Assembly: GCA_002049455.2 (NCBI GenBank) | Contig: KV918777.1 | Location: 424,547 to 488,546, forward strand | DNA: 64,000 nt | Reading direction: 5' to 3' | Source of the DNA: Porphyra umbilicalis | Taxonomy: Eukaryota > Rhodophyta > Bangiophyceae > Bangiales > Bangiaceae | Shown: positions 1-56,262 of the stretch, piece by piece | How the letters are laid out: each line of letters starts with the position of its first letter | Position numbering within the stretch: the stretch's first letter is position 1 | Program-made: the position numbers and the translations under genes | The notes under the pieces: model-generated | What the model saw: the letters and a program-made list of their open reading frames with translations, nothing else | Databases searched by the model: none | What the model was told of the DNA's origin: nothing

Positions 1-44
1 CGGCCAGACGACGAACCAACGTGGTGGTGCTTAGAACCGCTACA
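1..44 (+). repeat. 3' end of the 5' LTR of E1
   Basis: It matches 8081-8124 at 42 of 44 positions (differences at 13 and 16) and ends CGCTACA. Similarity to the downstream copy stops sharply after TACA, which fixes the LTR end. A few bases later, at about 50, comes TGGTGGAGCAG, where a tRNA primer-binding site should begin. I could not match it to a particular tRNA. Confidence 0.8.
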
Positions 45-175
45 ATTTTTGGTGGAGCAGCAGAAGATTCCGGCCGTTGTCACGCCCGTACCGGGTAGCC
101 GGTTCCTCGATCGTCTGTTGGTTTGTGAGTTCAAGGCGACGTGGATCTCCGCGTCGGTCTGTCGTGGATTACCGC

Positions 176-1864
176 ATGGCCACTATGGTGGCGTCGCCGT
201 CCGACATCCCCAAGTCGAACGCGATCGCTAGCGGTATGCCGGCGGGTACATCCGCTGTGACCCCAGCGGTCGCTGCAACAGGGGGATCCGCGGCCGGATC
301 AGGGATTCCCTTCACTCCGCCTCGGCCATTGGCGGACCTCGTGAGCGAAACGGTTCGTCGGGTCCCGCCGGGGGCCGGTGACTTCCTCCCTCGACGTCAC
401 GACGAACGGACGGGATTGGTGGATCAAGATCGTGATCCGGCGACGCCTTTAGCGATGGCCGATCTGGACACGGCGCTGTCAACGTTCCGAGAGTCGTTAT
501 TTGCCGACGTTTTTCGGGTCATCGCGGCGAGCCCCGCGGGCTCTGCTCAAGATGCCCCCCGCCGAGATTCTCCAGTGGACACGCGGAAGAGCCGCAGCAA
601 AGGGAAGTCACGGTGGCACCGTAGTCCCTCGTCGTCATCGTCGTCTTCATCTTCCTCTCCGTCGCCGGCGAAAACCGACAACGACGACGACCAAATGGGG
701 CGCAAGGTGGGGTCCGGCAAGTTGGCGGTCCTCGAGTGCCCGGACGATCGCTTCGCGGGCGTCTTGGACTACCGATCGTACCGCCTACGGAACCGTCACT
801 CGACCTACGGGGCGTCGCAGGCCCGCAAGATGGGACGGACGGCCAAGAATATGAAGTTCTCCTTCGGGGGGACCCCGATGTTCAACGGGAAGGAACCCCT
901 CAAGGTCTTCTCGTGGCTCCGAAAGTTCGTCAAGGCCTGCGATGACAACGACGTGTCCGAGGGGATGGGTTTGTACCTAATTCCCAACTTCCTGGCGGGC
1001 GACGCTGAGACGCGGTTCACTCGGAACCTACCGGGGTCGGATATCGCGGGCGGACGGGGCTCGCTTGGATCCTTTCCCGCGGCGGTCAATTGGCTGTTGT
1101 CGACCTACGCGGAGCCGCACGCTTTGGGGCTGGCGCAGGACAAGTTTAGCCGGGCTGCGCTCGTGGACAACGAGGGGGTGGATGCCTTCGCGGCACGTCT
1201 ACGGAGCCTCGCTGAGCTTTGCGGCAACATCCACTCCGAGGGGACGATGAAACAGCAGCTGATCCAAGGCCTACCGGAGTATCTACGGACGGACGCCTTC
1301 GTGTACAACTCGGCGCAACGAAGCTACCAGCAGTTATCGACGTATGTGGCGGGGAAGTATCGGGCCGCCAAGGACGTCATGGCGTTGGCCAGCCGGGGGG
1401 CACCCGGGGGATCATCGCGAAAGGGACAGACGTCGACGGGGCCCCGAGGCCTCTCGGTCAACCAACTCCACTCCTCGTGTGAGGAGGATGACACGGCGAC
1501 GTACGACACGGTCGCGGTGCTGCCGTCGGGTACCCCGGGGTTCCGCACGGATGGAGGAGCGCCCTATGTTCGGCGGGAGGCCCCGACGGGTCCCCCGCTG
1601 TGCTACATGTGTTGGACGCGTGGCCACCGAGTCCCTGATTGCAAGATTCTGACGGACAAACAGCGGGACCTCGTGAAGGCCGCGCGGAGCACCTTCCTTC
1701 GACAGAGGCACGCGGGGGCGGGCGCCCCCTCGGATCGCACCTCCGTCGTGGCCCTGGTGTGGGACGACCTGTTGGGCGGTGCGGAGTCAACGAGGACGGA
1801 AGGGGGGGACGCCCCGCCCGTGGCAACCCCGGCCAAGGGGCGCCGCGGGGCGGGAAACGCCTAG
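176..1864 (+). CDS. gag: Gag polyprotein of E1 with CCHC zinc knuckle
   Basis: This is the structural protein of the retrotransposon particle, which packages element RNA in the cytoplasm. The frame is open from about 77, but the first ATG is at 176 and gives about 562 residues; I chose that start. The N-terminal third is Ser/Arg/Pro-rich with a long serine tract (about 620-660 nt). The middle, from about 840 to 1400, resembles the retrotransposon gag fold in being rich in Leu, Phe and Trp with FxGTPMFNGKEP near its start. A single zinc knuckle CYMCWTRGHRVPDC lies at residues 476-489 (1601-1642) and would bind RNA. The last 225 bases overlap pol, which lies in the -1 frame. Confidence 0.88.
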   Translation: MATMVASPSDIPKSNAIASGMPAGTSAVTPAVAATGGSAAGSGIPFTPPRPLADLVSETVRRVPPGAGDFLPRRHDERTGLVDQDRDPATPLAMADLDTALSTFRESLFADVFRVIAASPAGSAQDAPRRDSPVDTRKSRSKGKSRWHRSPSSSSSSSSSSPSPAKTDNDDDQMGRKVGSGKLAVLECPDDRFAGVLDYRSYRLRNRHSTYGASQARKMGRTAKNMKFSFGGTPMFNGKEPLKVFSWLRKFVKACDDNDVSEGMGLYLIPNFLAGDAETRFTRNLPGSDIAGGRGSLGSFPAAVNWLLSTYAEPHALGLAQDKFSRAALVDNEGVDAFAARLRSLAELCGNIHSEGTMKQQLIQGLPEYLRTDAFVYNSAQRSYQQLSTYVAGKYRAAKDVMALASRGAPGGSSRKGQTSTGPRGLSVNQLHSSCEEDDTATYDTVAVLPSGTPGFRTDGGAPYVRREAPTGPPLCYMCWTRGHRVPDCKILTDKQRDLVKAARSTFLRQRHAGAGAPSDRTSVVALVWDDLLGGAESTRTEGGDAPPVATPAKGRRGAGNA

Positions 1865-4800
1865 GGGGGGTGGCATCGCCATCCCTCTCCATCTCCCCTG
1901 TCCGCCCCAACTCCCCGGTCGCCCCCCGCCACGTCACGCTTGCCTCCCCGGGGGTAACCGCGACGTGGCCTGTCCCGGCCCGCTGCCCCAGCCGTCGTGG
2001 GCGATACCGCCCGCGGTTCAAGGGGACGGTGTTGCTACTACGGAAAGAAATTTTTGAGATCAGCGCGTCGTACCAGTTGGCGCCGTGGCAGACCCCCATC
2101 CCCACGAGGGCGGTGGTCGACACTGGCGCCGGGCCAAGTGTGATCCGCGCGGGTATGTTGCCCGAAGGGTGGACCGAGTATGCATCGCGGGCGCCGCCCC
2201 GGACCCAAGTGAGTGACGCCTCAGGGCAGCTGCTCAAGGTGAACGCGGAGGTGTCGCTGACGATCTACGTCGGGGGTGCCGCTATGGAGTTTGAGTTCCT
2301 CGTGGTCAAGGCACTGTCGGTACCGCTTATCCTTGGGTGGGACTTCCAGCGCAACTACGTGGACACCATCTCCCCCAAGACGCAGACGATCAAGTGGGAC
2401 GACGGCACGTCCACGGTGGCGACGCGGAGCTGGACGGGGAACACGCGGCCCACGCCCCCTCTCCGAGGAAACAAGCCGAAGGCCCAAGCTGGGGCTATCA
2501 GGCTTCGGCAAGGGGTAACCGTGGGCCCGCGGTGCATCCAGGCGGTCCAAGTGTGCTGCAACGTCAAGGGGGTCCACCTGGTACGGGAACGCCCCGTCAA
2601 AATGAGCCGACGGAACGTACTGTTGCGCAACGCGGTCGCGGAGTTCTCCCCCAACACCCCGCGGTCCCTCTACCTGACGAACATCAGGGACGTGCCGGTG
2701 CACCTAACGAAGGGGTACGTCATCGGAACCGCGACGGCCTACAATGGACCGCTGCACTTCGTCGAGGAGGAGGAGGAACCGGGGGCGATCCTAGCGATGG
2801 GGGCGAACCCCTGTGACAAGCCCGACGAGGAGGTCAAGACGGGGCAGCAAGCCGAAGAGAGGATCGACGAGGGACAACCTCCACCTCATCCGCCGGACAA
2901 GATGTATCCCAAGCCGGAGGTCCACTGGGAGGGCGTCCCCGACACGCTTCGTGTTGACGTGGACGACCTCCTCGAGGAATACAAGGCGCTATGGGCGGGA
3001 CAACTCGGCAAGGTCGACGTCACCCCGCACCGGATCGAGGTGACCCCCGGGGCACGGCCACGGCGGGCCCAACCCTATCGGGCGAGCCACGCTTCGAGGG
3101 ACATCATCGCCAAGGAGGTGCAACGCCAGCGGGACCTCGGGGTTATCGAGCGCTCAAGTGCCGAGTGGGCCTTCCCTGTGCTTCTGGTTCCGAAACCCGA
3201 CGGGACAGTGCGGTTCTGTGTGGATTACCGCCGACTTAACGAGGTCACGGTGCGGGATGTGTACCCGTTGCCACGAATGGACGATTGTATTGACTTCCTC
3301 GGGGACGCCAAGGTGTTTCCGACGCTCGACTGCAACTCGGGGTATTGGCAGATCCCCGTGGCGGACGAGGACCGGGGCAAGACAACCTTCGTTTGCCACG
3401 AGGGGGCCTACCGCTACATCCGCCTTCCCTTCGGGCTGTGCAATGCCCCGGCGACCTTCCAACGGGCCATCGACATGATCCTCGGCGGACTCAAGTGGAA
3501 GAGCTGCCTCGTGTACCTCGACGACATCATCGTCTTCTCGCAGTCGGCGGGGGAACACGTGGAACCCCTCCGAGAGGTCTTCACGGCGCTGCGCGGCGCG
3601 GGTGTCTCCCTGAAGGCCAAGAAGTGCCACTTGTTCCAAGAGGAGGTGGAGTATTTGGGCCATATCGTGGGCCGGGGGGAGCTGAAGGTACAAGACAAGA
3701 ACATCCGCGGACTGAAGGAGGCGTCTCCCCCGCGGTGCAAGCAGGACCTACGTAGCTTCCTCGGGATGTGTTACGTGTATCGGAGGTTCGTCAAGGACTA
3801 CGCCCAAGTGGCACGGCCGTTGGCCGCCATGACAAGTTCCAAGAGGCCCGACCGGTGGGGGACGCTGTCCGACGAGGCCCTGGGGGCATTCGAGGAGCTC
3901 AAGAGGCGACTCACGGAGGCCCCCATCCTCGCCCTGCCGAGGCGACAAGGGACCTACACGGTTGACACGGACGCAAGTGCGGGGGAGGTCGGCGCGGTCC
4001 TTTTACAAGAACAACCCGACCAATCCACGCGGCCCGTTGGCTATTGGAGCCGCTCCCTCAACGCGGCGGAGAGAAACTACAGTACGACGGAGCGGGAGTG
4101 CCTCGCGGTTGTGTGGGCGTCCCTCCTTCTCCGCCCCTACGTCGAGGGGACCCGCTTCACGGTGCGCACGGACCACGCGGCGCTCAAGTGGATGCCGCAT
4201 ATGGACGCGGCTCACGGGAGGCTGGCGCGGTGGCGGTTGCGACTGGCGGAGTTCGACTACGTGGTACAGACGCGCCCCGGGGCGTCACACCACGCGGCGG
4301 ACACGATGTCACGCATCTCAACACCCGCGGCAGAGGGGGCGATACCCGACGCGGTACCTTGTCTGGCGTTGCCCAACTTGTCGGCCGCGTGGCAGTTACC
4401 GCCGGAGACCAAGGGGGGACTCCTAGGCCCCCTGAAGCTCTCCGAGCTCCTCGAGGGGCAGGCGGAGGACGGACGGTGCAAGCAGGTCCGCGCGGCGATG
4501 GACAGCAACGACAAGTCGCGGTTCCGCGAGGACTCGAACGGCCTGTTGGTACGCACGGCGCCGTTGGACGGGGCCACGCAAGGCTACGTGCCGACCCACC
4601 TGCGCTACGGGGTGATGATGCGGGAGCACTACCCTCCGCAAGCCGGGCACCCGGGGGCGAACAAGATGTACACGTCGATGCGACGGTGGTTTTATTGGGA
4701 ATCAATGGTGGTGGACGTCTACGCCTTCGTGGCCAACTGCACGCAATGCGCGAGGAACCGCGTCGGCAAGCGACGCAAGACCAACTACCTCAAGACCTTT

Positions 4801-5940
4801 CCCCCGACGGAACCGCTGACGGATCTGTGTATGGACCTGCTTGGCCCCCTTCCCCGGACGGCGGCGGGGAACGAACATCTGTTGGTCATCGTGGACCGCT
4901 TCTCCAAGATGACGCGGGCCATCCCCCTTCAGCGGATCGACGCGGAAACCATCGCGGCAGCCTTCTTGGATCACTGGGTGGCGGCGTACGGACCCCCGGC
5001 GACGGTATTCTCGGACAATGGCCCCCAGTTCCGCTCCACGTTCTTCCAAGGGGTTTGCTCGCTCCTCGGGATCTCCAACCGGTACTCCACGACGTACCAC
5101 CCGCAGACGAACGGCCAAGTGGAACGTTACAACCGGACCATCGTGGGCCAGTTGCGGAAATACGTCGAGGACCACCAAGACCGATGGGACGAGTTGGTGT
5201 CGATGCTGACGTTGGCCTACAACAGCCGGCCGCAGCAGAGCACCGGGGCGGCGCCCCTCGAGTTCGTCACCCCCGAGCGTGTACGGAGTCTCTCCGTGGA
5301 ACGCCTCGTCGGCTCCCCGACACCCGAGGAGACGGACAGCAGCCCACGAGCCGTCCGCGAGGGCATCCGAGCGCGGCTGCGAAGCCTGATCCACAAGGTG
5401 CGGAAGTCCCTCACGCTGGCGCAGCGGCGGTACAAGAGGAACTACGACGCCCGCGTACGACCAGTCAACAAGGACGTCCACGCGGGGGACTGGGTGTTCG
5501 GCGATGGCCACACGCGGACCAAGTACAACCTCGGGACCCGCGCGGCCGGGCCGTACAAGGTGTTGTCCCGCGGGGAGGGCACGTTCTCGCTGGACATCGG
5601 CGGGTACCCTGAGACGGTAAGCAGCGACCACGTGACGGCGGCGTCGGGCCCGCCGGGGGATCCGCAGACGCTCCTGCGGAACCTCGGGGTACCCCAAGAC
5701 ATTGTGGTCCCCGAGGGGCATCAACACACGGGCAAGGAGTTCGTCTGGGAGGCCTTCGTGGGCCACAAAGTCGCGGACGACGGCACGCTACGCCTGTGGA
5801 CCCGCTGGTGGGGGTACCACCCCGAGGAGGACACCCTCGAGTTGGCCAGTCGATTCGACAAACATAAGGTGCACCAGTATATGCGGCGTGTGGGCCTACG
5901 AGTCGAAGAAGCCGGGTCAGTCATCGACTTCCTCGCCTAA
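1639..5940 (+). CDS. pol: Pol polyprotein of E1 (PR-RT-RH-IN-chromodomain)
   Basis: This enzyme polyprotein copies and integrates the element. Domains in order are: aspartic protease with DTGAG (from 2119); reverse transcriptase with YLDD (3514-3525); RNase H with DTDAS (about 3964); integrase with an HHCC zinc finger (about 4627-4750) and catalytic acids in MDLLGP (4834), SDNGPQF (5014) and QVERYNR (5122); then a C-terminal chromodomain, VWEAFVGHK through HKVHQYMRR (about 5740-5890). The frame has no own ATG near its start and overlaps gag in the -1 frame, so it is probably made by -1 frameshifting between 1639 and 1864. A G7 run at 1802-1808 is the only obvious slippery tract, but its phase (A GGG GGG) is imperfect. 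All catalytic motifs are present. Confidence 0.95.
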   Translation: MQDSDGQTAGPREGRAEHLPSTEARGGGRPLGSHLRRGPGVGRPVGRCGVNEDGRGGRPARGNPGQGAPRGGKRLGGVASPSLSISPVRPNSPVAPRHVTLASPGVTATWPVPARCPSRRGRYRPRFKGTVLLLRKEIFEISASYQLAPWQTPIPTRAVVDTGAGPSVIRAGMLPEGWTEYASRAPPRTQVSDASGQLLKVNAEVSLTIYVGGAAMEFEFLVVKALSVPLILGWDFQRNYVDTISPKTQTIKWDDGTSTVATRSWTGNTRPTPPLRGNKPKAQAGAIRLRQGVTVGPRCIQAVQVCCNVKGVHLVRERPVKMSRRNVLLRNAVAEFSPNTPRSLYLTNIRDVPVHLTKGYVIGTATAYNGPLHFVEEEEEPGAILAMGANPCDKPDEEVKTGQQAEERIDEGQPPPHPPDKMYPKPEVHWEGVPDTLRVDVDDLLEEYKALWAGQLGKVDVTPHRIEVTPGARPRRAQPYRASHASRDIIAKEVQRQRDLGVIERSSAEWAFPVLLVPKPDGTVRFCVDYRRLNEVTVRDVYPLPRMDDCIDFLGDAKVFPTLDCNSGYWQIPVADEDRGKTTFVCHEGAYRYIRLPFGLCNAPATFQRAIDMILGGLKWKSCLVYLDDIIVFSQSAGEHVEPLREVFTALRGAGVSLKAKKCHLFQEEVEYLGHIVGRGELKVQDKNIRGLKEASPPRCKQDLRSFLGMCYVYRRFVKDYAQVARPLAAMTSSKRPDRWGTLSDEALGAFEELKRRLTEAPILALPRRQGTYTVDTDASAGEVGAVLLQEQPDQSTRPVGYWSRSLNAAERNYSTTERECLAVVWASLLLRPYVEGTRFTVRTDHAALKWMPHMDAAHGRLARWRLRLAEFDYVVQTRPGASHHAADTMSRISTPAAEGAIPDAVPCLALPNLSAAWQLPPETKGGLLGPLKLSELLEGQAEDGRCKQVRAAMDSNDKSRFREDSNGLLVRTAPLDGATQGYVPTHLRYGVMMREHYPPQAGHPGANKMYTSMRRWFYWESMVVDVYAFVANCTQCARNRVGKRRKTNYLKTFPPTEPLTDLCMDLLGPLPRTAAGNEHLLVIVDRFSKMTRAIPLQRIDAETIAAAFLDHWVAAYGPPATVFSDNGPQFRSTFFQGVCSLLGISNRYSTTYHPQTNGQVERYNRTIVGQLRKYVEDHQDRWDELVSMLTLAYNSRPQQSTGAAPLEFVTPERVRSLSVERLVGSPTPEETDSSPRAVREGIRARLRSLIHKVRKSLTLAQRRYKRNYDARVRPVNKDVHAGDWVFGDGHTRTKYNLGTRAAGPYKVLSRGEGTFSLDIGGYPETVSSDHVTAASGPPGDPQTLLRNLGVPQDIVVPEGHQHTGKEFVWEAFVGHKVADDGTLRLWTRWWGYHPEEDTLELASRFDKHKVHQYMRRVGLRVEEAGSVIDFLA

Positions 5941-6045
5941 GTCGATTTCCATGTGGGACACGTGGGTTTTCAAGTTCCGAATCGTCGCGGATTTTCGTTT
6001 ACCACACGTGTCCCGGTCGGAGCCACGTGGCCGTGGTGGTGACCA

Positions 6046-7440
6046 TCACTGTCGCGCGGCGGGATCGTGGCCCTCCCCGTGGCCGTGCCGTCGGGCCAAA
6101 TTGATCGGGCATCGTGGACGTGTCCTGAGGGGCGGATTGGGCCGGCTGGCCCGTGCGGATCTGTCAGAAGGCGGATTGGAAGGTGGGATCGGGATTCGGT
6201 TCGGGGTACAAGGGGCGCTCTCGTGAGGGGTATGCAAATGACCTACGCGGGGTTTACTGGTCGCTGACGTGCCGTCCGGCACCGTCGACGCAACGACACC
6301 TTCTACACTCTGAGCTACTACAACCCCGTGGGGTGGTCCCCTCTCTCCCGTCGTGTTTCATCCTCCCTTGTTCAGCGGTACCTCGAGGCGGGCCCACTCG
6401 ATACAAGGGATGGCCCACGGGGTATGCCTCCCCGCGTAGTGGTCGTCCGTCGTGTCCACGGGGACCCACAGGAGTTCCGCCATGCTGCCGTATGGGACCT
6501 CCACCCCGTAGCACCACGCGGGAGTCGACAGGGTCAAGCGCGAGCGCGTCGCGGTGGCACAACTTAGGTACTCCGCTCGATGACGGGCGACGAGGTGGCC
6601 TGTGAGCCCGCCCCGGTGGTGGCTGCGGGCGGTCGTCGACTGGACCTTCGTGGTGTCTTCCTTGTCGGACGCCCAGATGAACGGGGGACACGTCAAGATG
6701 TAGGCGAAGGTCGGCACCCACGGCGAGTCCCCGGGGGCGTCGTCCATGAAGCCGACGTGAAAACGTCGGTACCCCACCTCGCGGCTACGCCGCACCACGG
6801 TGATCGACGAGGCTCGGTCGTCGAGGGACGGTACGAGGGCGTGCGACCTGGCCGCGTTGTGCTTGGCGAACGGGTTGGCGGGGCGCACCGAGTCGATGCC
6901 CCGGAACGTCGCGCGGGCCAGCGTGTCCGCTTCGCCCATGCGGGCCTCCTCGCCTCCCACGCCGGCGCCCACGTCTACGGGTCGGACAACACGGGTAGGG
7001 GGCCCACGGCGGTGGAGGACGCCATCTCCTCTTCTTGTCGGCCATCGCGGAGGACGACGCCGACGCGGACACCTTGTTGTCGGGGGGGGGGGGGGCCGCC
7101 GGGTCCTCGTCCGACGAGGGTGGTGGGGGCAACCGCGCGGTGGTGGAGGGGGGGGGGGGGACCCCCCGAGGGCCCACAGAAGCAAGAAGCAAGAATCGAC
7201 GGGCACCACGGGGGGGGGTGGACGGCACGTCGTGGGGTGGGAGGAGGAACGAGTCGGCGAACACCGCGTCGCAACCAGCGCGGATGGGTTACGTCGCGGG
7301 GTGGTGGGGAGGAGCCGCGGAGTTGCACGTGGTGGGGGGGTGAGACCGGGGTGTGCGTGTGGGCCACGGGGAGGGGTGGGGACAACGTGCGTCACGGGGG
7401 GTGTGGGGGCCGCGAGACACCGGTGCGGGCCGCGCGCCAC
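6046..7440 (-). pseudogene. Antisense accessory ORF of E1, one in-frame stop
   Basis: An ORF of unknown function runs opposite to pol between pol and the 3' LTR. The - strand frame is open from 7440 to 6046 apart from one TGA at 6358-6360, in a context that fits a CGA-to-TGA change. The true start is uncertain; the first part (7440 to about 6960) is Pro/Arg-rich and crosses long G runs that may hide frameshifts. A core with PAWCYGVEVPYG (about 6470-6510) followed by a Trp/Leu-rich stretch resembles the Trp/EVP core of the E2 and E3 antisense ORFs. Its stop lies 105 bp from the pol stop, a spacing shared with E2 and E3. Homology to E2/E3 is by eye and moderate. Confidence 0.55.
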
Positions 7441-8080
7441 GCCACGCCGGTGTGGCGTGGGGCCGATCCAGTCCGCGGACCGACCTCGACAACCCCTCTG
7501 GGGCGAGGATCGGGGGGGGGGGGGGTGGCGGTTGTGGCCGGCACCCGGCCAGGGGGCCGGGCCGGAACCCCCTCCTCAGGGGTCGTCGCGGGACGGGCAG
7601 GGACGCCACGTCACGTGACGAGGGGGCTGTGTGGCGGTCGGGGTTCCCAGTTGGAAGGGGCGTGGCCCCTCAGCTGTGGACAGCACACCCCCGGGGGCCG
7701 TCCCAAATATCCCGATCCGGGCCAGCAAGGGAATGACCTGTCCAGATCTCGGGGAGATTGGATTCGGTCGGGGGCGGGGCTTTTCCCCAGTGGTTTTCCC
7801 AGCCCCCCTACTACTTGTTTGAACTTGTCACTTTGGAGGGATTCACCGGTTTGGCGCATTTGGGGTGGCTACTTTGGCCACCGGCGTTCGGGTTTGGGAG
7901 GGGTTTATTGAGAGTGGGGACGCTGTCCCCGTCGCCGTTTGATAAAACCAACTGTGCTTTGGACTACGATTCCCCCCTGGGCTTTGCCGTGATCCTCTCC
8001 TCCCGTTGGGGGAAGGCTGGGCTGTGGGTCGATTTCCGGGGCAGTTCATTCGACGGACCGGGCTGATCAAGAGGTCACTT
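7441..8080 (+). other. 3' end of E1: G-rich stretch and most of the 3' LTR
   Basis: No ORF here looks coding. It holds several polyguanine tracts (for example 7510-7526), then mixed sequence leading into the matched LTR end at 8081. The LTR start could not be placed, because only 44 bases of the partner LTR are in the window. TGTG at 7629, preceded by GACGAGGGGGC, is one candidate start with a purine tract before it. Confidence 0.4.
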
Positions 8081-8124
8081 CGGCCAGACGACAAATCAAC
8101 GTGGTGGTGCTTAGAACCGCTACA
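8081..8124 (+). repeat. 3' end of the 3' LTR of E1
   Basis: This partner of positions 1-44 ends in TACA at 8124. The next five bases, CTGGT, should be the right target duplication; the left copy is outside the window. From 8125 the sequence is the body of remnant E2. Confidence 0.8.
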
Positions 8125-9819
8125 CTGGTCCAGTGGACGCCCCCCCACGCCCCCAGTCATTTCGGGGAGTGTCGCCTGCGGACGCAATACGCCGCGAGCC
8201 CGCTGCCCAAGCAAGGCCCGGCTTGGCAACGCTGGCTGAAGCGCCACCCCGTGAAGTGCAAACTGCCTGCCGAGGTGGTGACGGACCTCCCTGTCCTACT
8301 AGAGGCGGGGGACGCGCAGTGGGTGGAGCGCGCCGCTGCGCGCCTTTCCAATGTCATGAACGGGGCCACCGCCGACAACGTGCCGCCGGTCGTGGCGTGG
8401 GAGTGGGCGTTCTCCTCCCCCCCGTCCTTGTGGGAGGGGGATCCTCACTTCCACCACCAGGACGCCCGCACCGAGCGTCGGGTGCGGGAGGCGTCGGGGA
8501 TCCTGGTGCGGGCCTCTCAAGTGGAGAGTACCCATGTCCACGCCTCGGCGCGGCCGGCTTACTATGTCCCGACGCCGTACTGGTGGTCGGCGATGGAGGT
8601 ACCCTTCGGGTTTCCCGCCCGGATGCCGCGCATCGTGACCTACTTTGGCACCGCGCTCCGCCGGGGGGAGTCTACCCCGGCTGCGGCCATCCTCGCAACC
8701 CAGTGGGTGCTGGAGGTCGCGGGGGTGTGGTATGCCTCCGCCCGTACCAAGGGATACCTCTGGCATCTGCCCGCCGGCGTGGTGGGTCGCCTTGTAGGGC
8801 TCCGCCTTGCTGACGTGGCGGAGGGGGCAGGCCCGGACTCGCATGCGTACCTCAGCGAGTTGCTGGACCTGCACCAGTCGTTGGACTAGGAGGCTGCCGG
8901 GCCCTACCTCGCCCGCCGAGTTGTCGGGGAGGAAGGCGAGGCGCCTCGGCCGTTTGTCCACTGCAACAAACGCCTGGTGGGCGGGCGTATAGGCCTCCGT
9001 GAGGGCCTGGGTGACCCCGCCTACCCCTACGCTGTGGGGGTATCGGCGACGTCGCCCCCGCCCGAGTCGGGTTGAGGTGCCCCGGGGGTAAGTTATCCCC
9101 ACCAGCGTCAGCGCACTTGGGGTACTGCCGAGCGCCCCCCTGCTCGTGGGGGCGCTGTGCGGCGGACAACCCGGGCGGGGGCGTCCCCCATGGGGCGGTC
9201 GGGCCGCCCGACGTTTGCCCCGCCGGGGTTCCCGTATTACCAGGCCCTGGGGGCGGGGCAAAGCTTCAGCTGGGGGTACGTCACCCCCCGGTGCGCGCAC
9301 GCCCTGGCGTCCACCTATCCAAGTGCGGCGGAGGCGCTTAGGGCGGCCCATGGGGAGGCGATAGTGGCCTCCCTGGTGGGCACCCTGGCGTGGGTTACCC
9401 GGGGGGCAGGGGCCGTACTGCGGGAATCCCCGTCCCCCCTTACCGCCTCGGCCGAGCAGTTCCTGGTTGACAACACCCCAGAGGCCATCGGGTACCAGAT
9501 GGCCTCCCGCTTGGAGGGGCACGGCCAGCGGGTGGCCCCTGGGCCCGTAGTGCCTGCGGCGGCCGGGGGCTCCAGTCGAGCCCCGTACGCCGGGGAGCCT
9601 GCTGGCGCAGCCGCACCCTTCCGTGGAAGCGGCTACCCCTCATCCGCTGGGCGGTACTCCGCCGCGGAGGCGCCGCCGAGTAGGGCGCCGCGCTCGTCGT
9701 GAGGGCCGGGCCCCGCGGACCGGGGGTCGGCCCAGGAGTACCCGGTGGACCCCCCGGGTTACGACCACTACGGTGGGTACGCCCGAGACGACAGCCCGCA
9801 CTCGCCGGGTAGGGAGTAG
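8125..9819 (+). pseudogene. Antisense accessory ORF of E2, three in-frame stops
   Basis: This is the best-preserved view of the antisense protein family. One frame runs from the E1 junction to TAG 9817-9819, broken only by TAG 8887-8889, TGA 9073-9075 and TGA 9700-9702, with no frameshift. The core (about 8560-8800) reads PTPYWWSAMEVPFG, then ARMP, then ATQWVLEVAGVWYASA, and LWHLP. Further on, GLGDPAYPY (about 9004-9030) matches GLGDATLPYG in E3. A second helical block (about 9295-9510) and a Gly/Tyr/Ser/Asp tail ending SPHSPGRE follow, again as in E3. Each stop can come from a C-to-T change in CAG or CGA. Its start is lost to the E1 insertion. No known domain recognised. Confidence 0.7.
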
Positions 9820-9958
9820 TGAACCGTGTCCCGGTAGGGTACGGGGACATCGAGTTATGGGTAGCCGCGCCCCCTACCATGATTGTCCCTAGTTGAGTTG
9901 GATCTTTTTGTCGGGGGTGTGTGTGAGGGGTACCCTGTACCGGGGTTTTTTAGTTGCA

Positions 9959-10642
9959 TTACACCCTTCTTCTCGCCGTGAGCCGGTGTCGCGCACAGTG
10001 CTGGCGGACCTTCTCAGCCGGGAGGTCCTCCACGTAGTGCCAGGAGTCCTCCCGAGGTCCATAACCGAACCATCTTACCTTGAGCATGAGTCGCTCCTGG
10101 TCGTCGTACCCCTGTCCGACAAAGTGGTCCAAGACAGTCTCAATCGGTTTACTCGCCGATGAGCGTAGGGAGGGGACCCGCCACGCGGCCAGTGCCCGTT
10201 CCCACGCCGGTTCATCCTCTGGTGGTTCTGGGGCCCGGGTGGCATGGTTCCCATTGACGGTACAGATACCATAGTCACTTTCGATGGTAAGCCGACGCCC
10301 GTCGGTCTTCAAGATCTGGTAGGGTCCCAGTGTCTTGAAGACGAGTTTACCTCCCTGGTTCTCGAGGGACTTCACGAATACCCAGTATTCAACTTGGAGG
10401 GCTTCGCGGCGAACCTGCACGCGCTTGTCGAAGGCTCGTTTGTACCGGGCCTTTGCCATTTCCATTGTATCGCATACTAGGGGGATCAGGGAGTCGAGGC
10501 GCTGGAGGAAATTCTCCTTGGCTCGCCCGGGGGCTACTATCTCCCCTGGGTCGGTGCCCGCTGTAAGTCGTTCGATTGCCACGGGAGTAAGCCGTCGGGG
10601 ACTTACGAACGCGAAGGGGACTTGCCCGGTGCTACTATGCAC
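9959..10642 (-). pseudogene. C-terminal fragment of E2 pol (integrase end plus chromodomain)
   Basis: This fragment contains the last part of a chromoviral integrase. YNSQVHSSTG just upstream and the frame from 10642 match the end of the integrase core. A GPYQILKTDGRR segment, as in E1 (GPYKVL), follows. A chromodomain, VLDHFVGQGYDDQERLMLKVRWFGYG to HYVEDLP (split here as two motifs), lies at about 10000-10140. The frame meets TAA just beyond 10670, so everything upstream is missing. Its stop faces the antisense ORF stop across 139 bp. Confidence 0.85.
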
Positions 10643-10704
10643 TTGCGAATTGTAAGCCGTTACTACTAGGCTTAATTATCGGGACCACGTATCTACGTGG
10701 TCAC

Positions 10705-12026
10705 TTACGTATGGTGCGTGTCCCAAAAATGAGACATGCGCGTTTTCTGAAGGACTGACACATCACTGCACGGGGGCAGGCGGCGTGGGGTACGAGAAAT
10801 TTCTCGACTGGCCTCCATGCGAAGAGCCTCTCCCGACGCGTGCTTGGCTGACAACTCCTCAGCACCCGCCTGTGGGCCCTGTACAGGGGGGGGAAAAAAG
10901 TTTACGATCGGATTGGGCGCTCTGAAACGAGACCAAGCCGGGTGATTGAGACCTGATTGAGAAAAAGTCGCCTGGAGGCCTCGTTTATTGCGATTGACTT
11001 TATATTTTTTCGAGTGACCGCGGGCGTTCACCAAGGCGGTCTCCCGGTCAGGCGTCGACCGCCACAAAGCAGAGAGATACGAGTCCGGCAGACGGGCCCA
11101 CTCCTCACACAGGGCATCAAACAAACCTTCCAGGGTCGTTGGGGGCTGCGGGCCTCGAGCATGGACTACAGGTTCTTAATGGCGTTCATGTCGGGGCTCT
11201 GCGGCGCCCAGTCGAGGCGCTGCACGCCATGCAGCGCCATGTCCTTGCCCAAATTAAGGGCGCGGTGAGGTCCGCAGATGTCCTCCAGCAGCATAAGGTT
11301 GCCGGTGCCGCCGTGCGTGTCCTCAATGAACGGCAACAGGTGCTCGTGGATTATGTCCATATAATGGACCTGATTGAGGCGGCCGTTCACGCGCACGATG
11401 GGCGTCCTCCCTCGCGCTGAGAACGCGTCCCAGACCGACAAGCTCAGCCGCCGCGACTTAAAGGATGGTCGCAAGCATGCGGGCAGGTAGCGCTCGTGAG
11501 AGCGTCGCCACACCCGCGCCTCCCCGCGCTCCGGCCGCACGGTTAAGGTGCTCTCGTCGGAGAAGGCCACATCCTCCCATCGGCTGAGGGGCCAGGAGAC
11601 CTTATCCCGAGCCCATCTGAGGCGCTGGGACACGTGGTGGCTTCTCAGGTACGGCTTGGATACTGCCACGTAGTTGAGCAGGAAGGCCCGGTGAAAGTAG
11701 CGATGTACCGTCAGACTGCAAATCTTGTTGGTCATAAACCGGTTCACCTCGGCCGTCAGCTGATCCAGGGACCATGTACGGTGCCGGTACACCAAAAGTT
11801 GAAGGTGGCGGCCCTCCCGAGCCGACAAAAAGCGGGGGCGGCCGGCACGACGGCGGCGCGCCGCTGTCCCCTCCCGCCGCACCCGCGCCGCAATGGTCGC
11901 CACCATGCTCAGGGGCAGCTCCATGCGGGAAGCAATGAAGCGGTTGGTCATACCTGCCTCCACGAGCACCCACACGGCCTCCCTGGCCGCAGGGGGCACC
12001 TCCTTGGAGCCCTCGGAGCGCCCCAT
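10705..12026 (-). pseudogene. Tc1/mariner transposase, catalytic residue lost
   Basis: This was the cut-and-paste transposase. The ATG at 12026 begins MGRSEGSKEV; helix-turn-helix DNA-binding domains follow (about residues 10-110), then the DDE core. The first acid is in AFSDEST, the second in LLEDICGPH. The third, normally the E of PDLNPIENLW, is K in PDMNAIKNL. Spacing between second and third is the 34 residues typical of Tc1. The next codon, expected Trp, is TAG (11166-11168), and the C-terminal part (FDALCEEWARLPDSYL) continues in another frame from about 11125 downward. All three defects argue that it is dead. Confidence 0.85.
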
Positions 12027-12635
12027 TGAGGAGATGGGGACGAAGACGAGTGAATAACCCCCCCCCCCCCCCCCCCCCTCGAATGGTCTGAAAAGGCGAT
12101 GTTCTGCTCCGCGATCGATCGCATCTGGCCCAAATCGGGTGCGATCGTAAACTTTTGTGCCCCCCCTGTACCCTGCTTTATATCGGAGCGCAACTCGATC
12201 GCTCCAGTGCGGGGCCCACCGCACTTGATGGCACTTGAAGTGATGATCCACAGCTGATCTGCGATCGAGTAATCCGTTGTCTCAAGTCTATCAGGTTTTG
12301 CCTGCCTACCCCCCAGGAACACCTCGTGAAGAACGAGGCATAAGTCTTGGAACGTCCTTCTGCGCCTCAATGCACCATTTATGATTCAAATCCACGATCG
12401 AGCGTCATGAGCGCCTCCGGTCGTTGTCGTTTCGGAACAGATTGTCCAATCATCTGTAAATTATCATGTGGGCGACAAAGTGCTCCACTTTGCTTTACAA
12501 GCGCACAATGACTGTACTAAAGTCTATCCCATTCTATTACAGTGTGTATTCGACTATGCGACGCGGGGCCACTTTATAGTAGCCTACTTCGAAATCACTC
12601 TTAGATCATCATTTGGGGTGTGTCACTGCAGGGTT
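10711..12635 (-). mobile_element. Tc1/mariner element, inactive
   Basis: Ends are approximate. The left end near 10711 (GTGCGTGTCCCAAAAATGAG) and the reverse complement of 12605-12635 (GTGACACACCCCAAATGATG) resemble each other as degenerate terminal inverted repeats, with TA nearby on both sides. Between them is a broken transposase on the - strand. A C run lies at about 12059-12078, upstream of its start. A 9-bp-arm hairpin (GACCACGTA/TACGTGGTC, 10683-10702) sits just outside the left end. Confidence 0.5.
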
Positions 12636-18438: not shown

Positions 18439-19722
18439 TCAGGCATGCGTCTGCCACAACAAATCTACCACTTGGTCGCGCAAGTGGAGGGCCTGGTGAT
18501 ACGCGGCCGTCACATCCAAGTCGGGATGTACGTCGCCAGACCCCCCTCCCAACCTGTCCGCAAGCTCCCCCAACTCCTCACCAACGTCGATCAGAAAGTT
18601 GTGCAGCAACACACATGCTTCCACAATAGAGGGAACAAGTTCCATCTCAGCAGACACAAACCGCAGCACCCGCCACCGCCCCTTCAAAAGGCCAAACGCA
18701 CACTCGACAATCGCTCGCGTCCAGGTCAAGCAGATGTTATAGAAGCGACGCTTCGGGGTAGTGATCTCATCCAATGGAAATGGCTTGAGCAACCAGTACT
18801 CCAAGGCAAAGCCGCCATCAGCCAGCACAACACGACCGGGGTGCAGAACATGACGGCCAGGTGTAGATTGGCGATCGTACCACTCAGACTCCTTAAGCGC
18901 CCTACTATCCCCCAAAGACCCCCGCAAACCAGTTCGTACCCACAGAAACCGCTTCCGAGCGTCCACCATCCCCAACAGCAGCACCCCGTAGAAGCACTTT
19001 TTGGTGTTAAAGGCCAGCCGCCACGCAGCTGTCGGCGTGCGAATGGGGATCAGGGTGCCGTCCAGAACAGCCACCACCCCGGCAATGCGGCTTCCGAGCT
19101 GCTCCACAAAGTCGGCGGCGTTGGATTCTTGCTCACTGCAAGACATTGGGAAACGCACGGGCGGCAGGCCTTTGGCAATCGCCGAGAGCACTTCGCGGAG
19201 GATGGCCGAGAAGGTCGATTCGGCAACGTCCGCCACGTCACATGCGACAAACTGCGAGCCCCCATGAGCCAGCCAGAAAAGGGTGAGCAGCAGCCGAACA
19301 CGTGGCGCCACTGTCGGCGGGCGCCCGACCCGACCATCGCCCGGGCGCCGGAGGTAGGGGCGGACATGCCCATAAAGATGCTCAAAGGTGGCCAAAGACA
19401 TGCGGATGTGGCGCTTAAACCCCTCCACCGTTCGAACCAGGCGTTCCGCCCACGACTGCCCGTTGTCGCGAGTGAAAGCATCCGATGCGGCAGCTCTTTT
19501 GGATGTGAGTAGCTGCCCGCACATCGCCAGCAGCTCGTCTAGCTCCGGGTCGTCGTCCGAGTCGTCGCTGGACGTCGAGGAGCGAGAGGAGGAGGAGCTG
19601 TGGGCGCTCTGCTCGACGCTGTCAGTCAAACAGCCGCTCAGGCTGCTGTCTGTGACGTCGGTCAAGCTGACGGAGGTGCTGAAATCGTGAGGGCCGACAA
19701 CCATCTCGTTCGACTCGTCCAT
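18439..19722 (-). CDS. PIF/Harbinger transposase, apparently intact
   Basis: 427 residues from a genuine ATG at 19722 to the stop at 18439, with no interruption. A Ser/Asp-rich N-terminus is followed by a helical region with FKRHIRMSLATFEHLYGHV. The DDE_4-type nuclease core comes next: first Asp in VVAVLDGTLIPI, second in VVLADGGFALEYWL, and Glu in TRAIVECAFGLLKGRWRVLR. All three acids are present. It converges on the Myb-like and coiled-coil ORFs, 208 bp apart at their stops, which is the two-gene arrangement of autonomous PIF/Harbinger elements. Of the DNA transposases in the window, this one and the KDZ-type enzyme are intact. Confidence 0.88.
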   Translation of the reverse strand: MDESNEMVVGPHDFSTSVSLTDVTDSSLSGCLTDSVEQSAHSSSSSRSSTSSDDSDDDPELDELLAMCGQLLTSKRAAASDAFTRDNGQSWAERLVRTVEGFKRHIRMSLATFEHLYGHVRPYLRRPGDGRVGRPPTVAPRVRLLLTLFWLAHGGSQFVACDVADVAESTFSAILREVLSAIAKGLPPVRFPMSCSEQESNAADFVEQLGSRIAGVVAVLDGTLIPIRTPTAAWRLAFNTKKCFYGVLLLGMVDARKRFLWVRTGLRGSLGDSRALKESEWYDRQSTPGRHVLHPGRVVLADGGFALEYWLLKPFPLDEITTPKRRFYNICLTWTRAIVECAFGLLKGRWRVLRFVSAEMELVPSIVEACVLLHNFLIDVGEELGELADRLGGGSGDVHPDLDVTAAYHQALHLRDQVVDLLWQTHA

Positions 19723-39491: not shown

Positions 39492-42400
39492 ATGGCCTGG
39501 TCACAGGTGGATGGGGATGCGACCGGCCGGCCGCCCTGTGGACGGGAGGCGTCTGTGTTCGGGTCCCAGAACCCTGACAGCCTACCGTCATGGTCCCTGT
39601 TACCGCTTTCGCAGCCTGCTGCCTCACCTTCTGGACGGTATGGCTGGGTAACGGGTCTGGGAGGCGGGGCGGATGAGCCTCTGGCGAGTACCAACGACAA
39701 GGGGGCGACGATGGGGGCGACGGTAGGAGCTGGGCCTTGGCTCTCTCCTCCACTCTCACTTCCCCCTATTTCCCCCCCGCTATTGACTGCCCTGCCGCGC
39801 GCCGAGGCGGTGGAGGACGTGTGTGCACCCACGACTGGGATTTATCCCGCGACGTCCGGGGGGCTGATCTCGGGCTCTCCCATGCCTACCCTTCCCCCCA
39901 TCTCCTCGCTGCTGGGATCTTCAATGTCGCAGCCGATGCCGCCTCCACCGCCGCCGCCACCGCCGCCACCCCCGATAGCTCCGCTGCCACCACCGCCACT
40001 ACCGCCTCCGCCGCCACTGGCGCAACTATTGTCCCTGCCGCAGCCGCGACGTCCGTCGTCGCCATCTCCACGGCCGCGTTCACCACCACCAACACCACCC
40101 CCACCACCACTCCGACCCCCATCCGCACCCCCACCGCCTAGGCCGCTTTCGCGGTTTCCACCGCCACCGCGGCCGCCGCCGCCGCCTCCATCGGCCCCTT
40201 CGGCTGTCACACGTGCCCCCGTGTCCGATACCGCTCGCCCACCCCCCGGGTCTTCTACCCCCCTGCCCGCCGCCCGATCTGCGCCTGCGCCTCCCGATGC
40301 TGTGCCGAAGGCGTCGCGACGTCGATCGTTAGCAGCGTCGGCCGCAACGGCAGTGCCGTCCTCAGCGGCCCCCGCCTTTGTGCTCAAGACAAAGGCGGCG
40401 GCGCCGAGCAAGGGCACGACCACGCCCTCGACGTCACCTCTTTTTGCTTCCACGGAGAAGACGAGCAGTGGGGAGCCTTCCCAAGCCGGCCCATCCGCGA
40501 CGCCCTCCCAGACGCCGTCGTCGACGGCCCCGGTGCGGCCGGCGCTGGGGCGGCGGAACACGTTTGACGCCATGTCTCTGTCCATCCTACAGATGATGTG
40601 CTGCGCCGCAAGGCAGTTGCTGAGCTTGGTCGCCGCGACTCCCAAGTGGACCAACGTTTGGCTTGTGCTGGAGGCGGGTGACGGGTCGGCTACGTCGCCG
40701 TTCTATGGCCACATCATCAACTGCGGGAAGGACGCAGACGCAGTGGCGTCATCCGAGAGCGGCGAGCTGTGCGCCGACTGGTGGGCGTTCCGCGGTGGAA
40801 AGCAAGGGCGGCGGCCAGCGGCGAAGGCGGCTAGCGCAACCGTCGGTGCAAGCGGCAACAAGCCCAGCGCAGGACATGCCGGCGGCGGTGGCGGCAACAC
40901 AAAGGACGGCGAAGACAACAAGACGGACGGGCAAAGCGGGAACGGTGCCGGAAGAGACGGCCAAGACGTCAAAAGTGGCGGGGACGACGGCGGGGATGCG
41001 GCATCGTCAGGCGCCACGTCGTACCCGGAGCAGAAGATGCTGTCACGGTCGGCAGTCAAGGGCATCGTCGAGCGCCACGCCGGCAGCAAGACGCTCAGCA
41101 AGGACGACCTCGCGGCGGTGCTAGTCTCCGGCGGCCTGGACGACTTCAAGGAGATCACCTACGGGGACATTGAGGATATCTTCCTGCGTGCTGCCGTCGT
41201 GCTACGGGCGCGGTGTGACACCAAGAACGCGTTCTCCTGGGCACGCTTCTGCCCCGTCCCTCTGCTCGCCAATGGGTGGTCGACACCCTCGTTGCCACAC
41301 ACCGTTCACGGGTCGGACTTTGTGCCGCCCAACCACCGGTCGTCCAAGGGTCAGGGCATCGACAAGAAGAGGTTGATGGTGTGCGTGGCTATCCACCTGT
41401 CACCCTTCTCTGCCAAGATCTTTGAGGAGCACTTCTCCGCCTGCCGCGCGAGCGGCAAGAAGAAGCGCAAGCGCTGCAACGACCCGTTCGCGGGCGCCGA
41501 GACGGCCAACGGCAAGCCCCAAAAGAAGGGAAAGAGCGGGGGCATCACGGGAAAGCTGACCAGGGCAGAGCAACTGTCGGCCGCCGCCAAGGCGCGGTTA
41601 AACAAGATGGAGGCCCAGCATGCCGCTCGCATCGCCAAGACCAAGGCCGACGCCGTGAAGGCCGCCACCATCTCTCTAGCGGCTCGGGCCAAGGCGGCTT
41701 CTGAAGCTGCAGGTAAAGCGGCAGCCAACCCGAGTGCACCGGCCAAGAGGAGGATGGACCCGCCAGCGGCGTGTGGTGACAACAGTGGTGGACGCAAGCG
41801 CAGCACGATGGGCCCGGCGGCATTAGATGCGCTGTGCGTCCTGGAGCGCGTGAGTGGGCAGGTGCGCATGCACGAGGCGTGGATGCGCCAGCCGACCTCC
41901 CTCTTGCCCCCGTCCACGACTGTTACTGTCGTCTCCTTGTGCGGTGCCGCCCTCTCCGCCGCCGCTCGTGCGAGCGTGTCTGTTCGAGTCGTCCTCCCGC
42001 GCCCGCTTCTGAAGATCGCCTTTGCGCAGCTGGCCGCCGCCATTCGAGCTGCTCCCCCGCGGTTGTCGGACACGACTAACGCGACGGAGCTGGCCGTGCG
42101 GCTTACCCTGGGCAACTACGAGCCTGTATTCGCCTTCCAGACGACGCTCGACCAGATGAGCTCGGTCTTAGCTTTCAACGACACCATCGAGTTGTCTCCC
42201 GGCTTTTTGTCATGGGTGGGCCAGCTGGGGGTATGCAACGACGTGCTGCCGCCGCAGCTCAATTTCTTCTCGGGCGAGGCGACGCAGATCCGGACGATGG
42301 CCGGTGCTGTGCGCGACGACGTGGCGGGCCGGCTCCTCGGCGACTGCGTGTGGGCCATGCCCCCGGTTGGCCGACGGTCGGATGCCACCCCGTCGACGCA

Positions 42401-43082
42401 CGGTGCGTTTGGCGGGTACTGCGTCAACGTGCACGACGTGTGCGATGCGGGGCGGCGGGCGTTTGCGACCAACGCGCTGCTGGACGGGGGCTTGGCGGAA
42501 CTGCACTTCCGGTGCGCCAATGCGTCAATGCCCATCGCCGTCTTGTCATGCTCCCAGTCGGCTTCCTTCACGACCATTGCTGGGGATGAGGTAAGTCTTC
42601 GGCGCGCTGTCCTGTCTATCATGGACGTGCTGAGTACCTGGGATGCATCTGTGGACCGGTTTGTGATGCTGTTCAACATTGGGAACTATCATTGGATATC
42701 GGCTTCTATCTCTTTCTCGTCTCGCTCCGTGGTCCTTTATGATTCTGGGAGAAGTAACTCCAGCGCCAAGGCATTCATCCTTTCCAGGCTGCTCCTGTTC
42801 GCGCGACAGGCGGAGCTCCGGCGGCGGGCGGTTGTCCTCAACGCGGTGGTAGAGGACATCAAGTGGCGGACGGACGAGGAGATCAACCGGCCGACGCAGC
42901 AAGACGGCTACAACTGCGGGCTGTTTGCGTTCTCGTTCCTCTGGTGCTCCGTGCACGGGGTGGACTTCGCGTCTCTGCCGGTCGTCGGCGACCATCTGCG
43001 GCTCTCTCTTCTGCATTTTGTGTTGCAGAGCGGGCGTTCGCGCCAAGCGCAGCTGGCGCTGAGGAAGCACGCGGTAGGATGA
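39492..43082 (+). CDS. Ulp1/SENP-like cysteine protease ORF of the KDZ element
   Basis: 1196 residues from ATG 39492. The first 350 or so are Pro/Ser/Thr-rich and probably disordered. A middle region (about 40560-41450) has no recognised domain, then a Lys/Ala-rich coil. The C-terminal 200 residues have the C48 (SUMO-protease) layout: His in NIGNYHWISASI (42691-42693), Asp in VVLYDSGRS (42741-42743), Gln and Cys in TQQDGYNCGLFAF (Cys 42914-42916). All catalytic residues are present. Ulp1-like proteases ride in several large DNA transposons; their role there is not settled. Confidence 0.82.
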   Translation: MAWSQVDGDATGRPPCGREASVFGSQNPDSLPSWSLLPLSQPAASPSGRYGWVTGLGGGADEPLASTNDKGATMGATVGAGPWLSPPLSLPPISPPLLTALPRAEAVEDVCAPTTGIYPATSGGLISGSPMPTLPPISSLLGSSMSQPMPPPPPPPPPPPPIAPLPPPPLPPPPPLAQLLSLPQPRRPSSPSPRPRSPPPTPPPPPLRPPSAPPPPRPLSRFPPPPRPPPPPPSAPSAVTRAPVSDTARPPPGSSTPLPAARSAPAPPDAVPKASRRRSLAASAATAVPSSAAPAFVLKTKAAAPSKGTTTPSTSPLFASTEKTSSGEPSQAGPSATPSQTPSSTAPVRPALGRRNTFDAMSLSILQMMCCAARQLLSLVAATPKWTNVWLVLEAGDGSATSPFYGHIINCGKDADAVASSESGELCADWWAFRGGKQGRRPAAKAASATVGASGNKPSAGHAGGGGGNTKDGEDNKTDGQSGNGAGRDGQDVKSGGDDGGDAASSGATSYPEQKMLSRSAVKGIVERHAGSKTLSKDDLAAVLVSGGLDDFKEITYGDIEDIFLRAAVVLRARCDTKNAFSWARFCPVPLLANGWSTPSLPHTVHGSDFVPPNHRSSKGQGIDKKRLMVCVAIHLSPFSAKIFEEHFSACRASGKKKRKRCNDPFAGAETANGKPQKKGKSGGITGKLTRAEQLSAAAKARLNKMEAQHAARIAKTKADAVKAATISLAARAKAASEAAGKAAANPSAPAKRRMDPPAACGDNSGGRKRSTMGPAALDALCVLERVSGQVRMHEAWMRQPTSLLPPSTTVTVVSLCGAALSAAARASVSVRVVLPRPLLKIAFAQLAAAIRAAPPRLSDTTNATELAVRLTLGNYEPVFAFQTTLDQMSSVLAFNDTIELSPGFLSWVGQLGVCNDVLPPQLNFFSGEATQIRTMAGAVRDDVAGRLLGDCVWAMPPVGRRSDATPSTHGAFGGYCVNVHDVCDAGRRAFATNALLDGGLAELHFRCANASMPIAVLSCSQSASFTTIAGDEVSLRRAVLSIMDVLSTWDASVDRFVMLFNIGNYHWISASISFSSRSVVLYDSGRSNSSAKAFILSRLLLFARQAELRRRAVVLNAVVEDIKWRTDEEINRPTQQDGYNCGLFAFSFLWCSVHGVDFASLPVVGDHLRLSLLHFVLQSGRSRQAQLALRKHAVG

Positions 43083-51144: not shown

Positions 51145-52204
51145 AGCAGGTGCCTACGGGGGGGCGGCGCCCCCACGAAAACCAGCGGCAACGAGAACCC
51201 TGGCCGCCGCGGTGATGGCGAGGGGCACCACCAGCAGTTGGATCCGTTGCGTCGGGGGGCGGCCGCCTGCCCCAGCAGCACCGCCGACGCCACGCCAAAA
51301 ACGGGAGAAGGAGCGGACGCCGCAACACCGAGCTCGGTGACGCCGGCGGTGGCGACGGCGCCGCCGCGGCGGCGAGGGGAGGGACGCCCCGAGCAAGCAG
51401 AGCGGTGGCGTCGGAGGCGGACGCCTGCCCCAGCAGCACCGCCGACGCCACGCCAAAAACGGGGGAGGGAGCGGACGCTGGAACACCGAGCACGGTCACG
51501 CCGGCGGCGGCGACGGCGCCGCCGCGACGGCGACGGCGCCGCCGCGGCGGCGAGGGGAGGGACGCCCCGAGCAAGCAGAGCGGTGGCGTCGGAGGCGGAC
51601 GCCTGCCCCAGCAGCACCGCCGACGCCACGCCAAAAACGGGGGAGGGAGCGGACGCTGGAACACCGAGCACGGTCACGCCGGCGGCGGCGACGGCGCCGC
51701 CGCGACGGCGACGGCGCCGCCGCGGCGGCGAGGGGAGGGACGCCCCGAGCAAGCTGAGCGGTGGCGTCGGGGGGTTGCCGCCTGCCCCAGCAGCACCGCC
51801 GACGTTACGCCAAAAAGGAGGGGGGGAGCGGGCGCGGCAACGCCGCGCGCGGTGCAGCCGGGGACGGCGACGGCGCCGCCGTGGCGGCGCGGGGAATGGG
51901 CGAGAGCCGGGCGCACGACCGCGGCAGGGTGGAGCACGGTGGCAGCGCGACGAGGTGGTGCCGGGTCGGATCGGGGCACCCCCCACAGCAGTGGCGTAAT
52001 GCGCGACTGGCGGGCGCGCGTGTGGAGCGGCCGCGAGCGGCCAGATCGAGGTGCAATGTTCTCAATCGGTGGCAGGCGCCGGAACATTCAATATATTCAA
52101 TTAGGCAGGGCCTGAGATGAGGCAACCTGGGGAGGTCAAATGATTGGCTGGCAACGATGCACGTGCCAGACGCGAGACCGGGCCTCACGGCCCTTCGGGA
52201 GCGC
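51145..52204. other. Right subterminal region of the KDZ element
   Basis: Upstream of the transposase; made mainly of the 178-bp tandem repeat plus GC-rich flanks, probably containing the transposase promoter. Confidence 0.5.
51265..51880. repeat. Tandem repeat of about 178 bp, three units plus a partial
   Basis: Units begin GCCTGCCCCAGCAGCACCGC at 51265, 51423, 51601 and 51780 (periods 158, 178, 179). The first unit lacks about 20 bp. It lies within the first 740 bp upstream of the KDZ transposase start. Confidence 0.85.
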
Positions 52205-55803: not shown

Positions 55804-56262
55804 TTAGCCCCTCTTCTTTGTGACCCTCGTCTCCATGCCGGCTCGGGCAACTTGTCGGTCTTGTACCCTTGTCTTGACTTGATCAGAAAAGTATACCCCT
55901 TCCCGCGTCAAGGCGGGGAGTTTAATTTTCTTATTGAGACAGTATTTCCGGAGGGCTTCCCTCGGAAGAGAAGAGGCAAATTGCCACGTGGCTTCCTTTT
56001 CTGGAAACCCAAACCATTTTACAAAGAGCTTCACTTGCCCGTCATCATTCCAGCCATGTTTGATAAAAATTTCAAACACGTACTCTGGACCATCCTTAAG
56101 TTGGGTCCCCTCCATGAAGAGGGCTTGTGCCCTAAGGGCACGGGTCCACTTGGCATCCCGCGCCGGGGGCGTGGGAGCTCCAGTGACATGTTCACTGCTT
56201 ACCGTCCTGATGCCCCTGGGGCTCTCTATCAGGAATCGGTATCCATCGGTTTGTAGTACCAT
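55804..56262 (-). pseudogene. C-terminal fragment of E3 pol with chromodomain
   Basis: 152 codons. VLQTDGYRFLIESPRG matches the GPYKVL region just before the E1 chromodomain, SSEHVTGAP matches SSDHVTAAS, and the chromodomain reads YVFEIFIKHGWNDDGQVKLF with KWFGFPEKEATWQFASSLP. The upstream pol is absent. Confidence 0.82.

Follow-up and report, generated by a model that had tools for sequence, protein, structure and literature searches.

Antisense accessory genes, which lie between pol and the 3' long terminal repeat (LTR) of a retrotransposon on the strand opposite to gag-pol, have been reported mainly from plant elements. In the grasses, Grande gene23 and the RIRE2 antisense gene occupy this position in most copies of their elements, and gene23 is reported to be nuclear and to have its own promoter (PMC7264820, in the part of the article available). 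The same part describes the antisense open reading frame (ORF) of PvRetro13, which has an SMC domain, and an antisense ORF after pol in the fungal element Boty (Botrytis, Sclerotinia), where the arrangement occurs outside plants. All of the Retand elements studied have antisense coding regions at this place; the TRP28 domain (PF04195) is found in 97% of clusters, and a regulatory, nucleic-acid-binding role is proposed (PMC11963269, likewise in its available part). This analysis concerns a gene of comparable arrangement in a gypsy group of the red alga Porphyra umbilicalis. The window, meaning the whole stretch of 64,000 nucleotides (nt) analysed (contig KV918777.1, positions 424,547 to 488,546 of the forward strand), contains three such elements, E1, E2 and E3, each with a gene antisense to pol, and this gene is almost certainly a real, selected gene of the element.

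The red-algal gene shares place, strand and presence in most copies with the Grande and RIRE2 genes, and place and strand with the PvRetro13 ORF; it is likened to gene23 and to Boty by arrangement, not by sequence (PMC7264820). The 14 red-algal proteins compared contain neither SMC nor any other Pfam domain at E<=1. PF04195 has no match in these proteins and none in a genome search whose control genomes were silent too. Retand is a non-chromovirus (PMC11963269), whereas the red-algal group has chromodomain-like integrase ends (below the Pfam cut-off). The word "antisense" is absent from the available parts of PMC6317226, a plant-element survey treating algal chromoviruses, and of PMC3605345, and a literature search, with most subscription papers outside its reach, found no report of this protein family among the entries listed. 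The niche is known; what looks new, within the literature searched, is the protein family together with the red-algal elements that carry it, combining the lack of a library match with an apparently chromodomain-bearing lineage and selection comparable with that on pol.

Placement beside pol and selection on the protein

The genome from which the window comes was searched with the E3, E1 and E2 antisense proteins (85, 126 and at least 151 matches) and with the three pol ends (151, 152 and 150 matches); all counts of placement refer to the matches listed. Pairing used 78 of the 85 E3-query rows (seven E2-type rows excluded), all 126 E1-query rows and 118 E2-query rows (E3- and E1-type rows excluded). 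Duplicate pol rows were entered once, and rows from a search with a full-length E1 relative, together with one further row, were added before merging. The result is 262 merged antisense-gene loci. Within 3.5 kb, the nearest pol end listed lies downstream on the opposite strand at 203 of them and in any other arrangement at none. In the placement control, a mean of 34.7 loci had any pol in range with arrangements pooled, a figure that overstates chance because contig sizes were underestimated. The original prediction of a positionally conserved accessory gene agrees with these counts (59 loci are without a listed pol), and the matches do not lie mostly outside retroelements.

The class of genes termed aORF-3R is recognized by strand, by position and by frequency within a family. 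All 203 paired loci are antisense to gag-pol and none is sense, and these pairs account for 203 of the 256 merged pol ends. As to position, an LTR search returned 40 matches with 94-100% identity to the query, and 14 contigs carry an LTR pair (768-771 bp, 8.9-9.8 kb apart) that encloses an E3-type gene adjoining the 3' LTR; E1 in the window likewise has its antisense gene between pol and the 3' LTR. Twenty E3-type loci were fetched, one of them shortened by a contig end, and 19 have a pol end antisense beside the gene (17 found with E1 pol; L040 and L044, which are partial, with the E3 pol end; none at L027). At most of these loci the family homology stops at a sharp boundary, the outer end of the LTR, some 1.4 kb upstream of the point that corresponds to the first ATG of window E3 (53902).

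The encoded proteins form one family with a core of about 270 residues, in which a 14-member alignment has 11 invariant columns. Identity to the E3-type reference in this alignment is 31-36% for the E2 type and 18-25% for the E1 type. The motifs PxWWxxxEVPxG, ARMP, ATxWxxEVAxV, LWxLP and GLGDxxxPY, earlier noticed in E2 and E3, do occur in the same order in both. Similarity was expected to survive comparison of profiles if the family is real; it holds for E3-E2 (98.9%, E 2.5e-17) and for E2-E1 (95.2%, E 2.8e-8), but the direct E3-E1 comparison is weak (36.7%, E 3.6e-4). By these sequence comparisons the three sub-families share ancestry. The family is old, since the E2 and E3 types are only 31-36% identical, and the gene is an old part of the element that spread with it; within the E3 type, distances between antisense genes correlate with those between the pol regions (15 copies, r 0.71, with 1 of 2000 permutations as high).

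Selection was estimated as the ratio of nonsynonymous to synonymous change (dN/dS; Nei-Gojobori, pairwise, on non-independent copies). The E3 type (19 copies, 171 pairs) has a median of 0.33 (interquartile range 0.27-0.44), and window E3 gives 0.22-0.39 against the 18 other copies. The other five frames give 0.45-1.65 and contain a median of 7-21 stops. By region, pooled values are 0.27-0.31 in the first 300 columns and 0.35-0.54 in the next 300. Ten of the 20 E3-type copies are intact (667-679 amino acids, aa) and have a pooled value of 0.30; nine broken copies have 0.44. For the E2 core the median over eight copies is 0.25 (pooled 0.31), and pairs among E2, L018 (which has two stops) and L019 give 0.68-1.08. 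Values near 1, which would have counted against a gene, are not what the medians of the E2 core and the E3 type show: the protein is under purifying selection in both. With dN/dS of 0.45 for the pol C-terminus (16 copies) and 0.38 for the reverse transcriptase (RT)-RNaseH region (10 copies), constraint on the E3-type antisense gene is comparable with that on pol, not stronger.

The copies in the window and the shortened E1 group

The three elements are laid out in the window as follows.

1-44, plus strand: end of the E1 5' LTR, matching 8081-8124; the remainder lies left of the window, to about -363
35-1864, plus strand: E1 gag frame, a 609-aa open frame upstream of pol and overlapping it, assigned by position
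1639-5940, plus strand: E1 pol frame, with protease, RT, RNase H, integrase and a chromodomain-like C-terminus
6046-6357, minus strand: E1 antisense frame carried on past its stop, to 105 nt from the pol stop
6358-6966, minus strand: shortened E1 antisense gene of about 200 codons, lacking the C-terminal half and changing frame at its upper end
7716-8124, plus strand: E1 3' LTR, aligned part
8125-9819, plus strand: E2 antisense gene, start missing owing to the E1 insertion; three in-frame stops precede the terminal stop
9959-10675, minus strand: E2 pol C-terminus, chromodomain-like end
53671-55674, plus strand: E3 antisense gene, interrupted in frame by a single stop (53872-53874)
55804-56262, minus strand: E3 pol C-terminus, chromodomain-like end

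A long antisense ORF had been proposed after pol in each element. Position and strand stand, but none of the three is a single intact ORF, and all three copies are damaged. The proposed distances from the antisense stop to the pol stop are correct: 105 nt in E1 (6046 versus 5940), 139 nt in E2 (9817-9819 versus 9959) and 129 nt in E3 (55672-55674 versus 55804). For E1 this distance applies only if the stop at 6358-6360 is read through. According to family alignments, in which a long E1 query matches here with residues 20-218 only, the family part of E1 comprises about 200 codons (about 6361-6966), and the rest of its 405-aa ORF is another frame of GC-rich DNA; this ORF length is not unusual, being reached in 31 of 500 first-order Markov shuffles. 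The 599 aa of E3 are reached in none of 500. The family homology of E3 ends at about 53335, and the copy is therefore without an LTR.

The E2 gene lies in one frame, interrupted by stops at 8887-8889, 9073-9075 and 9700-9702; a frame change was considered for it and rejected. The full-length relative L019 aligns without gaps to 8125-10386 (94.2% identity), and because the alignment begins at the base right after the E1 LTR, E1 sits inside the E2 antisense gene, which lacks a start on account of that insertion. ORF length is uninformative for E2, because the longest open frame in that stretch (446 aa) runs on the minus strand and is unrelated.

Window E1 belongs to a larger group of shortened copies. 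A search with the 422-aa full-length relative lists 101 matches, of which 36 were taken as long E1 copies (33 with pol antisense, mostly about 0.8 kb off) and 38 more, including window E1, stop at residues 216-224 with 59-70% identity. Eight short copies give a dN/dS of 0.70, with 0.60-1.36 in the other frames; none of the eight has a stop within the 195-199 codons of the remnant frame, and dS against L045 is 0.40-0.49. Constraint is weaker in this group, and its absence is not proven. At four copies beside long genes (C380, C173, C22:352450 and C43:143589) the pol C-terminus is 93-94% identical to E1 and the antisense part 56-64%, a gap that may reflect exchange of a 3' segment between elements or faster change.

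Possible roles of the antisense protein

Taken as a whole, the explanation that appears somewhat better than evenly probable is that a gypsy group in this red alga carries a real antisense accessory gene that works by the following mechanism. Lying on the antisense strand, the gene needs a transcript of its own. It would be transcribed separately and convergently with pol, from a promoter that lies in the 3' LTR or in the adjoining leader of about 370 nt, and the E3-type transcript would end at an AATAAA about 123 nt past the stop. In L039 the ATG of the full gene is about 370 nt from the LTR, which a purine-rich tract adjoins on the pol strand, and AATAAA occurs +122 to +140 nt after the stop in 19 of the 20 E3-type loci. 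A scan of the leader for bacterial-type signals, which is ill fitted to eukaryotic DNA, gave two minus-strand terminator-like sites, versus 0.3 expected, and nothing resembling a promoter.

The product would be a soluble protein in which the conserved core of about 270 residues is flanked by low-complexity, partly basic regions. In the E3 type, a 36-bp tandem repeat encodes a Tyr-Gly-rich tail and residues 391-470 form a basic stretch (isoelectric point, pI, 11.9); the E2 type has a basic N-terminus of about 220 residues (pI 11.2) rich in Ala, Ser, Pro, Thr and Gly. A zinc-knuckle pattern and a hydrophobic N-terminus were looked for in the antisense proteins, and neither was found. The proteins have no match at E<=1 in Pfam (14 proteins) or PHROGs, and the best match among PDB sequences has an E of only 0.16. 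No relative was confirmed in IMG/VR or in bacterial and archaeal genomes, non-eukaryotic collections that carry little weight here. The protein would act in the nucleus on the nucleic acid or chromatin of the element, in expression or integration, as proposed for Grande and Retand. A nuclear nucleic-acid-binding regulator is the best guess because of this analogy and of the basic, low-complexity flanks; as an assignment it is tentative, and a nuclear regulatory accessory protein is rather less probable than the reality of the gene itself, falling short of an even chance.

Several findings weigh against this account. As to placement, no pol is listed within 3.5 kb of 59 of the 262 loci, and no antisense gene is listed for 53 of the 256 pol ends, some of which have long open pol frames. 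E2-like pol ends at C340:61278, C9:52665 and C124:43280 have 1341-aa open frames and no antisense gene listed nearby; they possibly represent a lineage that lost or replaced the gene. The unpaired loci and pol ends could reflect copies missing from the lists, truncation, or elements that lack the gene, which may not be universal. As to selection, single E3-type pairs reach a dN/dS of 1.06, and in the 10 copies used for RT-RNaseH, that region is under slightly tighter constraint than the antisense gene (pooled 0.38 versus 0.42, medians 0.26 versus 0.36). The mirror frame on the opposite strand also lies below 1 (0.45 for E3, 0.39 for E2), though with stops, a value that codon-position mirroring would give. 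Copies bearing AATAAA share recent ancestry, and the signal occurs neither after the stop of window E3 nor in the E2 and E1 spacers. The AlphaFold model made from the three window proteins is unusable (pLDDT, its confidence score, 34.8). Finally, the shortened E1 elements multiplied although they lack the C-terminal half, and a complete gene is therefore not always required in cis. It is conceivable, if unlikely, that the protein is a trans-acting factor and that the short E1 elements are parasitic, keeping pol and using the protein of full-length E1 relatives in the same genome. The loss of half the gene with continued multiplication offers a natural comparison for cis versus trans action of such genes.

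The gene might instead have been captured from the host, or its product might suppress host silencing outside the nucleus. No relative was found in the libraries searched, and an element producing convergent RNA would be well served by suppression of silencing, yet none of the 262 loci is shown to be free-standing (the 59 without a listed pol were not inspected singly and introns were ignored, so a host copy could be missed), and suppression is a hypothetical role. We regard this origin or role as unlikely.

Decidedly less plausible is that the region acts mainly as a source of antisense or double-stranded RNA that regulates the element, with coding secondary. Transcribed on its own, the region would yield RNA complementary to that of the element, and the available part of PMC7264820 raises the possibility for plant elements; such a function does not need purifying selection on the amino acids of a single frame, although it could be a second role. 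An envelope-like, membrane or movement protein is very improbable: the location after pol is that of env in retroviruses and one hydrophobic stretch is borderline (Kyte-Doolittle 1.65 over 19 residues in L042), but the gene lies on the opposite strand, has neither a hydrophobic N-terminus nor a Pfam match, and its other maxima (1.41 in E2, 1.38 in long E1) fall inside the conserved core. It is scarcely credible that GC-rich DNA and codon mirroring produced the frame by accident and that no protein is selected; the ordinary length of the E1 ORF, the dN/dS of the eight short E1 copies and the breakage of all three window copies would fit it, but the E3-type length, intact copies and median dN/dS, the E2-core median, the collinear motifs kept at 31-36% identity and the stop-free E1 remnants do not, so that it is refuted for the E2 and E3 types, with weak and absent selection not separated in the short E1 group.

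Element lineage and neighbouring features

The E1 LTRs are 97.8% identical over 409 bp (the 5' LTR completed from L010 and compared with 7716-8124). The gag frame has no Pfam family above the cut-off; in pol, RT, RNase H and integrase score above it and protease just below. Chromo is the only Pfam match at the three pol ends (13.1 bits in E1, 16.7 and 23.7 in the others; cut-off 25.1). The elements had been assigned to a chromovirus lineage; the chromodomain-like integrase ends agree with this, but every Chromo score is below the cut-off, and some chromodomain-bearing gypsy elements are not chromoviruses (PMC12477816, in its available part). The host elements are likely chromoviruses.

To the left of the E1 5' LTR lies a second E1 pol end with its antisense region (L010; about -3081 to -364), 99.5% identical over 2.7 kb. 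Judging from sequence, E1 and this copy are a tandem pair with a shared or abutting LTR. A Tc3-like transposase frame (11166-12281, minus strand) adjoins the truncated E2 pol.

A DDE_Tnp_4 transposase frame lies at 18442-19722 (minus strand), and a 1196-aa frame at 39492-43082 (plus strand) contains a Ulp1-type peptidase domain (PF02902); as a guess, the latter could be an accessory gene of a DNA transposon. A 1305-aa frame at 47236-51153 (minus strand) has no Pfam match at E<=1, and about four tandem repeats of 178 bp follow at 51188-51880. A Copia element at 57731-62570 is bounded at both ends by 300-bp direct repeats (98%) and encodes, on the minus strand, gag, integrase and RT domains of copia type. 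Elsewhere in the genome, the phycobilisome linker domain PF00427 has 12 matches, four on contig C665 (three of them in one 893-aa frame) and eight on other contigs, a distribution that we take to fit a red alga having linker genes in the nucleus as well as a plastid contig.

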